A stretch of 64,000 nucleotides of DNA from Beutenbergia cavernae DSM 12333. GTDB taxonomy: Bacteria; Actinomycetota; Actinomycetes; Actinomycetales; Beutenbergiaceae. The stretch is taken from the NCBI RefSeq assembly GCF_000023105.1, contig NC_012669.1, forward strand, positions 310,001-374,000, written 5' to 3'. This document shows positions 9,769 through 62,128 of this stretch, in pieces. Numbering within the stretch: position 1 is the stretch's first letter; every line of letters starts with the position of its first letter. A program made the position numbers and the translations under genes. The notes beneath the pieces were generated by a model. It was not told the DNA's origin. It saw only the letters and a list, made by a program, of their open reading frames with translations, and did not search any database.

Positions 9769-10143
9769 TCAGCGCGAGGAGAGCGACTGAGACGTCTGCT
9801 CGGTCGGTGGGACCGGCGTGCGTTCGACCCGGACGAGATCGCCGACGGCGGCCAGCTCGAGCAGCTCCGTGAGCCGGGGCGCCGGGTCGCGGAGCACCAC
9901 CTCGCGGCTCTCCTCCGAACCGTGCTTGTGCAGCTGCAGGATGAAGGCGAGCCCGGTCGAGTCGATGAACGTGACGTCGCGTGCGTCGATGACGACCGGT
10001 CCCGGATCGGCGAGGACCGCCGCCATGGCGGCACTCGCGTCGTCGCGGAGCGCGGCATCCACCTCGCCCCAGATCCGGATGACGACTCCTCCGCCGTTCC
10101 GGGTGTGCGTGATCCCGCCGTGGGCGAGGTCGGAGATGGTCAT
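9769..10143 (-). CDS. STAS-domain anti-sigma factor antagonist
   Basis: A 124-residue single STAS domain. The conserved phosphorylation loop is DSTG with Ser62, preceded by the strand VVIDARDVTFI. In the partner-switch scheme the unphosphorylated form binds an anti-sigma kinase and frees a sigma factor; the kinase would phosphorylate Ser62. No anti-sigma kinase, phosphatase or sigma factor gene lies next to it, so this is an orphan whose partner must be elsewhere. The C-terminal 15 residues are polar and low in complexity. Confidence 0.88.
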   Translation of the reverse strand: MTISDLAHGGITHTRNGGGVVIRIWGEVDAALRDDASAAMAAVLADPGPVVIDARDVTFIDSTGLAFILQLHKHGSEESREVVLRDPAPRLTELLELAAVGDLVRVERTPVPPTEQTSQSLSSR

Positions 10144-10257
10144 CGTGCTCCTGCGAGAGGCGGTGCCCGGTGCGTCGGGTGACGTCGGACCGGCGAGCGT
10201 ACAGCGTGTCCAACGCGCGGGTCCGGCGAGGTGTTCCGCCGCCCGGCGGAAGTGTGC

Positions 10258-11486
10258 GCGACGAGGACGTGACGATCGGATGACCTGACGGCGTCAGCGC
10301 GGGTGCGGCCGCGCGGCCCGCCGCTCAGCCCTCGGCGCGCGGGGCCTGCTGCCACGCCGTCGAGGCGGGTGCGGATGGTCGGGCAAGCCGGTCGCGCTCA
10401 GGGAGCGGCTGCGGCATGGGCCTCAAGCGCGCCGCGGCCCGCGGTTGTGTCCGGTGAGCGCGCCGTGGGCCGCGGTTGTGCCGGGTGAGCGCGCCGTGGG
10501 CCGCGTTTCCGGACGACTGAGCGCGGGTGTGGGCGTGGTCGTGGGGCGCGCCAGGCCGCGGCGCGCTCGGCGTCGCCGCGCAGGATGTGGTGCCGGGTGA
10601 GCGCGCCGTGGGCCGCGGTTGTGCCGGGTGGGCGCGCCGTGGGTCGCGGTTGTGCCGGGTGAGCGCGCCGTGGGTCGCGGTTGTGCCGGGTGAGCGCGCC
10701 GTGGGCCGCGTTTCCGGGCGGTTCAGCGCGGGTGTGGGCGCGGTCGAGGGCGGCGCCGGCAGCGGCGCGCTCGGCGCGGGGCCTGCTGCCACGCCGTCGA
10801 GGCGGGTGCGGATGGCCGGGCCGCCGTCCGCGCTCAGGGAGTAGCTGCGGCATGGGCCTCGAGCGCGCCGTGGGGGCCGCGGTTATGCCCGGTGAGCGCG
10901 CCGTGGGCCGCGGTTGTGCCGGGTGGGCGCGCCGTGGGTCGCGGTTGTGCCGGGTGAGCGCGCCGTGGGCCGCGGTTGTGCCCGGTGAGCGCGCCGTGGG
11001 CCGCGTTTCCGGACGGTTCAGCGCGGGTGTGGGGGTGGTCGAGGGGGGCGCCGGCAATGGCGCGCTCGGCGTCGCCGCGCAGGATGTTGTGCCGGGTGGG
11101 CGCGTCGTGGGCCGCGGTTGTGCCGGGTGGGCGCGCCGTGGGCCGCGTTTCCGGGCGACTCAGCGCGGGTGTGGGCGCGGTCGAGGGGGGCGGCCGCGGC
11201 AACACGCTGCGTGGTCCGGCGGCCGCTCCGCCGCGCGCGCTGGCAATGGCGCGCTCGGCGCCGCCGCGCGGCCCGGGTCACACGGTGCGCGGGGGGTCTG
11301 CGGTGACGACGTCGAGGCGGGTGCGGATGGCGATCCCGCCTCGCTCGTACGCGGTCGGGTCGTTCGAAGCCGGCCGCGCGGCCGTCGAGCGCGTGCTGGA
11401 ACCCCTCGGTCCGCTGACCGTCGCGACGGCACCACGTCCGCGGCGAGGGCGCGACGATCGGATGACCTGACGGCGTCGGCGCGGCC
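10258..11486. repeat. Higher-order non-coding repeat array built on a 31-bp unit
   Basis: About 1.2 kb without a credible gene. The basic unit is 31 bases, starting GTGCCGGGTGAGCGCGCC and ending GTGGGCCGCGGTT. Full units lie at 10447, 10478, 10590, 10621, 10652, 10683, 10885, 10916, 10947, 10978, 11089 and 11120, with partial ones before 10447 and 10885. Each run ends in a unit with GCGTTT in place of GCGGTT, followed by a second element with core AGCGCGGGTGTGGG (near 10519, 10724, 11021 and 11162). A block of about 105 bases (10331-10440) recurs at 10770-10875. The outer borders are near-identical direct repeats of about 45 bases at 10258 and 11440. Open frames here change frame from unit to unit because 31 is not a multiple of three. 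Confidence 0.85.
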
Positions 11487-11494
11487 GCGCGACC

Positions 11495-11881
11495 CTAGGC
11501 CTCGGCGCGCTCGATGTCCCCGCGCAGGATGCAGAACTCGTTGCCCTCGGGGTCGGCCATGACCAGCCATCCGCCGTCGGGCTCACGCAGGTCGTGCACG
11601 TCGGTGGCGCCGAGGCCCCGCACGCGCTCGATCTCCTCGTCGCGGGTGCGGTCCGTCGGGATGAGGTCGAAGTGCATCCGGTTCTTGCCGCTCTTCGCCT
11701 CCGGCACCCGGATGAACAGGACCCGGTGGCTGCGATCGGGCGAGAAGATCATGTTCTCCTCGTGCTCGGGCATGTTCGGGTCGTCGGGATCCTCGGCGTA
11801 CCCGAGCACCGCCGACCAGAAGAGCGACAGCGTGTACGGGTCCTGGGCGTCCAGTGTGGTGTGCGAGATGCGGCTGACCAT
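11495..11881 (-). CDS. VOC (glyoxalase/bleomycin-resistance) family protein
   Basis: A 128-residue single VOC module of the Glyoxalase_6 type. It begins with SRISHTTLDAQDP, has the central HFDLIP strand and ends with the family word DPEGNEFCILRG. Such proteins usually bind a divalent metal and act on small molecules, or simply bind drugs; the substrate is unknown. I took the ATG giving MVSRIS; ten residues upstream another GTG/ATG gives MGLGRR. Its last codons resemble three or four fragments inside the adjacent repeat array, as if the gene end had been duplicated. Confidence 0.85.
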   Translation of the reverse strand: MVSRISHTTLDAQDPYTLSLFWSAVLGYAEDPDDPNMPEHEENMIFSPDRSHRVLFIRVPEAKSGKNRMHFDLIPTDRTRDEEIERVRGLGATDVHDLREPDGGWLVMADPEGNEFCILRGDIERAEA

Positions 11882-11940
11882 GGGGCCGACGATCCTCCGT
11901 CCGAGCCCCACAGGCCAGCGAATTGCGCCGACCGGGCGCC

Positions 11941-12939
11941 TCAGGCCGCGCGCTCGTCGAACACGAGCGAGGCCCGCTTGATGACGTCCAGCCCGTCGGA
12001 GACGTCGACCGCCATCACCCCGGGCAGGCTGCCGACGTCGTCGGTGAGGAACGTGTAGAGCTCCTCGTCACCGCCGACGGCGACCTCGCCGCACAGGTTC
12101 GGCTGGCCGGTGGTGGCGGCGATGTTGAGCACGTTCGGGTGCGCGGCGAGCGCGCGGCCGGCCGCCTCCAGCCGGGAGGGCGCCACGCGGAGCCAGATGA
12201 AGGCGATCACGGGCTGGCCGATGCGCGCGGGCTGGACCACGGCGCGCAGGCGGAGCAACCCCTTGCTCATCAACGCCTCCGCGCGCCGGCTCGCCGTGGC
12301 CGGCTGCACGCCGAGCCGCTCGGCGAGCTCGCGCCAGCTCATCCGGCCGTCCTCGGCGAGCGCCGCGACCACGCCCCGGTCCAGCTCGTCGAGGTCGTGC
12401 CGCGTGTGCGGGCGCTCCTCCGACCAGTGGTCCATGCGGTCGGCCCGCAGCGTGGCGAGCGCGCGGTCCGGGACCAGGCCGCCGGTCCAGCCGTGCGGCG
12501 TCGAGAACCGGCGGATGATCTTCAGCGTCGAGCTGCCGACGACGCCCGGCAGCGCCTTGAGGCGCCCTCCCGTGATCTCCAGCAGGTGGCGGGTCGAGCG
12601 GACGTGCAGCTGGGCCGCGCAGTCGAGGTCGCCGCCGATGAGCGCGACGTACCCGGACTCCGGCCAGCGGGCCAGGGCCTGGGCCACGTCGACGCTCGCC
12701 CCCGGCACGCACCGCAGCCGCAGGAACGCGGCGAAGCCGGCGTCGGCGCGTTGCTGGTCGACGACGCCGACGACGCGGACGACGTCGTCGTCCAGCAGCG
12801 TCGCGAGACGTCGGGACACGGTCGGCGCGCTGGTGGCGGCAGCCGCCGCGATGGCTCCGACGCGGGCACGCGGATGGGCGAGGAGCGCCGCCGTGATGCG
12901 GAGGTCGACGTCCTGCAGAGCGGCGATGTCTTCCATCAT
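11941..12939 (-). CDS. Double-domain Lrp/AsnC family transcriptional regulator
   Basis: A 332-residue protein made of two Lrp-like units in tandem. HTH 1 is near 10-58 (TSAPTVSRRLATL) followed by a RAM-like region to about 165; HTH 2 is near 180-228 (VQPATASRRAEALMSKG) followed by a second RAM domain. Normal Lrp proteins are about 150 residues, so this is a fused pair. It is divergent from the oxidoreductase-GH89-sulfatase-transporter operon, 141 bases away, and is the natural candidate for its regulator, perhaps sensing an amino sugar derivative. GGAG lies about 10 bases before the first of two adjacent ATGs. Confidence 0.9.
   Translation of the reverse strand: MMEDIAALQDVDLRITAALLAHPRARVGAIAAAAATSAPTVSRRLATLLDDDVVRVVGVVDQQRADAGFAAFLRLRCVPGASVDVAQALARWPESGYVALIGGDLDCAAQLHVRSTRHLLEITGGRLKALPGVVGSSTLKIIRRFSTPHGWTGGLVPDRALATLRADRMDHWSEERPHTRHDLDELDRGVVAALAEDGRMSWRELAERLGVQPATASRRAEALMSKGLLRLRAVVQPARIGQPVIAFIWLRVAPSRLEAAGRALAAHPNVLNIAATTGQPNLCGEVAVGGDEELYTFLTDDVGSLPGVMAVDVSDGLDVIKRASLVFDERAA

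Positions 12940-60200: not shown

Positions 60201-62128
<1,928 letters not shown>

Follow-up and report, generated by a model that had tools for sequence, protein, structure and literature searches.

What is the repeat array of approximately 1.2 kb that fills most of one intergenic gap in the cave bacterium Beutenbergia cavernae DSM 12333 (HKI 0122T), and how did it come to be there? The window, the whole stretch of 64 kb analyzed here, covers bases 310001–374000 of one contig of 4,669,183 bases; positions below are those of the window. The gap measures 1,351 bp (10144–11494). On one side lies a STAS-domain (anti-sigma-factor antagonist-like) gene (9769–10143, minus strand; Pfam STAS_2, E 2.8e-14), and on the other a glyoxalase-like gene of the Glyoxalase_6 type (11495–11911, minus strand; PF18029, E 1.2e-27). 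An Lrp/AsnC-type regulator gene is found beyond the glyoxalase-like gene at 11941–12939. The minus strand is the sense strand for both genes that flank the array, and on this strand the STAS gene is the next gene downstream of the array. Among 23 other genomes of the family, no relative of the STAS gene with more than 39 % identity was found. Either the gene or its location may be peculiar to the B. cavernae lineage.

Read along the plus strand, the first part of the array starts with the left outer direct repeat (D-left, 10254–10307). It is followed by block A1 (10337–10426), run 1 with two full 31-bp units plus a terminal variant (10427–10519), the element E1 with a copy of a gene tail, T (10520–10600, T at about 10553–10587), and run 2 with three full units plus a terminal variant (10601–10724). 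This part closes with E2, at the end of which a T-like sequence starts (10725–10773), and block A2 (10774–10862). The second part opens with run 3, in which one 33-bp unit and three of 31 bp are closed by a terminal variant (10863–11019). Then come E3 and a second copy of T (11020–11099), run 4 with a single full unit plus a terminal variant (11100–11161), E4 with a unique insert and a T-like sequence (11162–11266), and the diverged block A3 (11267–11345). The right outer direct repeat (D-right, 11436–11489) belongs to the 3′ flanking sequence of the glyoxalase-like gene, whose end comes next.

A reading made from the sequence only had placed a non-coding array here, and the array is real, lies where that reading put it, and contains every structural level described. 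The details differ in part. The four runs were found as described, but the count of at least 12 full units was too high: there are ten full units of the GCGGTT type, one of them 33 bp long, and four terminal variants of the GCGTTT type, 14 in all. Every run closes with the GCGTTT variant and then the second element, as had been noted; the window contains exactly four occurrences of the core of this element, AGCGCGGGTGTGGG (at 10520, 10725, 11020, and 11162), and the E elements are 88–93 % identical to each other. The block common to two larger segments is present, and it measures approximately 90 bp (A1 and A2, 92 % identical). Above this level, the array forms a higher-order repeat of two 437-bp copies that are 84 % identical, and Tandem Repeats Finder (TRF) reports a period of 437. 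The direct repeats of approximately 54 bp that frame the array are 87 % identical, with an alignment score of 75 compared to a maximum of 41 in 300 shuffles. The score of A3 against A1 is 69, compared to a maximum of 32 in 300 shuffles. The outer direct repeats thus share ancestry, and so do A3 and A1; A3 is probably an older copy of A. Chance can be excluded for the unit because all 12 sites within nine mismatches of it, searched over 64 kb on both strands, fall inside the array. The TRF score of the array is 1098, and that of the next intergenic array is 328 in 864 kb of the genome (800 kb of sampled stretches plus the 64 kb window).

Repetitive GC-rich DNA is readily mis-assembled, and the array might on these grounds be an assembly artefact. 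We consider this the least probable of all the readings. The copies differ at many substitutions, and the higher-order copies, as given above, are only 84 % identical. The genome is also a finished one, built from 8-kb and fosmid Sanger libraries with 1,627 finishing reads; Sanger clones and finishing reads were applied to its repeats (PMC3035217).

The array does not code for protein. All ORFs of at least 60 codons that overlap it, the flanking genes excepted, score negative against the codon model of the genome (codon log-likelihood), whereas the same model gives the flanking genes values of +0.39 to +0.52 per codon. The GC content is flat over the three phases in the array, and six array ORFs gave no match in Pfam. 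These three results rule out a coding function. The sequence-only reading had reached the same conclusion from the 31-base period. That argument is not strictly valid, because repetition of a 31-nt unit that contains no stop can yield a protein repeat of 31 residues; the conclusion holds, as the spacers disrupt the frame and the ORFs score negative. A GC3-rich open stretch between A3 and D-right (11312–11452) looks like a gene remnant. We rejected this candidate, since its 47-residue translation has no credible family relative (best E 0.03 outside the locus).

A search of the whole genome showed that the unit is confined to the array locus. It is absent from the 395 other genomes of the order when a 30-base pattern with up to three mismatches is used, which was the comparison proposed along with the first description. 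A 25-base pattern gave a single match with three mismatches in one other genome of the family, which was taken as chance. The unit is also absent from the collections of viral contigs, plasmids, and phages that were searched, and no mobile-element genes were present among the near neighbors of the array that were scanned. A mobile or dispersed element was rejected, as the genome has no copy of the unit outside the array and the phages, plasmids, and viral contigs have none. When proteins from neighboring genes of the window were used in tblastn, the homologues of the glyoxalase were adjoined only by glyoxalases, save for one weak response-regulator match; because of this, there was no homologous gap with which to compare the array.

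The confinement of the unit also bears on two functions that had been suggested from the sequence, a protein-binding array and an integration hotspot. Neither found support: the unit is present nowhere else, and the scanned near neighbors lack mobile-element genes. In the first case, the units would offer a regulator of the STAS gene, or a chromosome-organizing protein, a site that always faces the same side of the helix. A unit length of 31 bp corresponds to roughly three helical turns, the 31-bp spacing is regular inside the runs, and the array sits upstream of the STAS gene. The longest palindromes in the unit are, however, only 6 bp, and segments of 112, 169, and 111 bp disrupt the phasing of the units. 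A unit that occurs at one place in the genome is also unlike most regulator sites. We therefore regard a binding array as improbable.

The origin of part of the array can be traced to the neighboring gene. Outside the array itself, its best match in the whole genome is the tail of the glyoxalase-like gene, 11 bp past the array end. T and the 3′ end of this gene are identical at 31 of 35 bp, and the match stops at the end of the gene. The alignment score is 50 compared to a maximum of 42, and none of 300 dinucleotide shuffles was as good. BLAST scores equal to that of the gene-tail match also arise by chance in related GC-rich genomes, and for this reason the link rests on position, orientation, and the shuffle test. 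The gene tail encodes the residues EFCILRGDIER. Relatives of the glyoxalase from other genera conserve them, which argues that the array was copied from the gene and not the reverse. The likely source of the T copies is thus the 3′ end of the glyoxalase-like gene. As two blocks repeat this end, the array appears to have been seeded in part by a duplicated gene tail with its 3′ flank. Between the core of the second element and the left flank repeat there is a resemblance that 2 of 500 shuffles equaled. For the origin of the 31-bp unit, the shuffle tests were not significant. Similarity of the array to the sequence of the STAS or the Lrp gene was no better than that of shuffles, and both were rejected.

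We assign a probability of roughly 0.7 to the reading that the array is a lineage-specific, non-coding composite minisatellite, seeded by a gene-tail duplication, grown by unequal exchange or slippage, and mainly neutral. First, the glyoxalase-like gene would have had its 3′ end duplicated together with its 3′ flank. A 31-bp segment would have been amplified after this seeding. As the repeats grew, unequal recombination between them or slippage during replication may then have duplicated the 437-bp blocks. The array would persist mainly as the gap tolerates it, without a selected sequence-specific function. Repeated unequal exchange, one of the possibilities put forward in the sequence-only reading, fits best with the nested duplications, the runs of one to four units, and the copies of the neighboring gene tail built into the array. 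We view the array as an ordinary bacterial minisatellite in kind, although an unusually elaborate one. Its value lies in an unusually clear record of the way in which a minisatellite can arise from the 3′ end of a neighboring gene and grow to three nested levels. One observation stands against the neutral minisatellite: the strand asymmetry of the array is strong, which could mean selection.

This asymmetry is the basis of the strongest functional alternative, in which the array is an extended Rho-loading (rut) zone on the glyoxalase-like transcript and stops read-through into the STAS gene. The RNA would be C-rich, G-poor, and weakly structured, such that Rho loads onto it, and amplified units would strengthen the effect. 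RhoTermPredict uses as its rut-site criterion an excess of C over G along 78 nt of the RNA (PMC6407284), and the array shows such an excess. Over 78-nt windows, the C/G ratio of the sense strand has a mean of 1.53 in the array and a maximum of 2.39, with 91 % of the windows above 1. Among the 69 co-directional gaps that span 300 bp or more, the gap ranks first for this ratio (1.51, with the next at 1.33), and the 500-nt 3′ flank of the glyoxalase-like gene is 6th of 635 for sense-strand C excess. The sense RNA of runs 1–2 folds weakly, at −143.7 kcal mol−1 compared to −209 kcal mol−1 for the antisense (plus) strand. No intrinsic terminator was found at the array, which is consistent with the involvement of Rho.

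The same skew would, however, arise without selection by amplifying one skewed unit, and it counts effectively as one event. A consistent C excess on the sense strand is missing from arrays in other co-directional gaps, and 3′ gaps overall average near zero. Because there is no general C>G bias in 3′ gaps or in co-directional arrays, the Rho reading is weakened, and we consider it unlikely. A Rho-loading role of the array is possible as a passive one, for which the C-rich skew is suggestive only. It is more doubtful still that the array is an evolvable Rho barrier, in which C-rich 31-bp modules derived from the 3′ end of the gene itself would have been amplified under selection and the number of units would tune read-through into the STAS gene. 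The array nevertheless offers a clean place to test Rho termination by C-rich intergenic repeats in high-GC actinobacteria.

The folding calculations also weigh on the earlier suggestion of a structural RNA, here a structured non-coding RNA made of repeated modules. On the antisense strand, the fold of runs 1–2 is mildly better than that of shuffles (z=−2.3), but on the sense strand it is no better (z=−0.35). A search of Rfam returned nothing above threshold, only sub-threshold miRNA and snoRNA matches, and no sigma-70-like promoter was found at the array. A structured RNA is thus very improbable, and the suggestion was not borne out.

As a composite minisatellite, the array can be set beside known systems. 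Its near-identical head-to-tail units fall in the range of approximately 10–100 bp, are non-coding, and lie between genes, as is typical of intergenic minisatellites of the variable number tandem repeat (VNTR) type. The MIRUs of Mycobacterium tuberculosis are minisatellites, mostly intergenic, that are thought to lie in polycistronic operons (PMC3635867). Like these, the array consists of tandem minisatellite units between co-directional genes of an actinobacterium. MIRUs occupy many dispersed loci with known variation in copy number, whereas the unit described here is confined to one locus and known from one genome; the array adds three nested levels and the gene-tail copies. In the higher-order repeats of satellite DNA, several units together form a larger block, and the block in turn recurs. 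The array shares this repetition of unit groups as blocks, and differs in being bacterial, with two higher-order copies and a total of 1.2 kb. With a CRISPR array it shares direct repeats of approximately 31 bp, but its units abut without spacers. A CRISPR array was rejected on this ground, and Cas1 was not found in the genome (controls matched in 9 of 14 genomes). For B. cavernae, a single CRISPR repeat region is given in the genome paper (PMC3035217). This region may be one of the tandem arrays.

The array is otherwise ordinary, in that unrelated intergenic arrays of similar size are present in the same family. In 864 kb of B. cavernae, there are 14 intergenic tandem arrays with a TRF score of at least 80, the studied array included, and their units are unrelated. 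Four other members of the family gave 12 intergenic arrays in 400 kb, one of which scores 1048 (genome G001). From these counts, large intergenic arrays with unrelated units recur in the family. In G001, the arrays comprise a 216-bp unit in 3.1 copies (score 1048) and a 111-bp unit in 3.6 copies (score 671), at L248:15258–16148 and L249:6130–6524.

A 22-bp tandem repeat of B. cavernae, GCGAGAGGTTCGTGGCGCCACC, resembles the studied array in its short units, in that several of its arrays are intergenic, and in being largely confined to this genome. It differs in sequence, which is unrelated, and in being dispersed over about 20 places. With its variants, it has 55 matches in the genome (up to three mismatches), and the relatives contain isolated matches with three mismatches alone. 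Sites include L181:8177–8353, L190:18703–18786, L195:17674–17736, L198:1005–1058, L224:10122–10174, and L229:19095–19146. This dispersed repeat is possibly more interesting than the studied array.

The window holds a second array at 61853–62002, with a 41-bp unit in 3.7 copies that match at 95 %. It lies upstream of a gene that we take, from reading its translation, to be glutamate-dehydrogenase-like. The minus-strand gene that precedes it likewise has a 3′ flank rich in C on the sense strand, which ranks 7th of 635.
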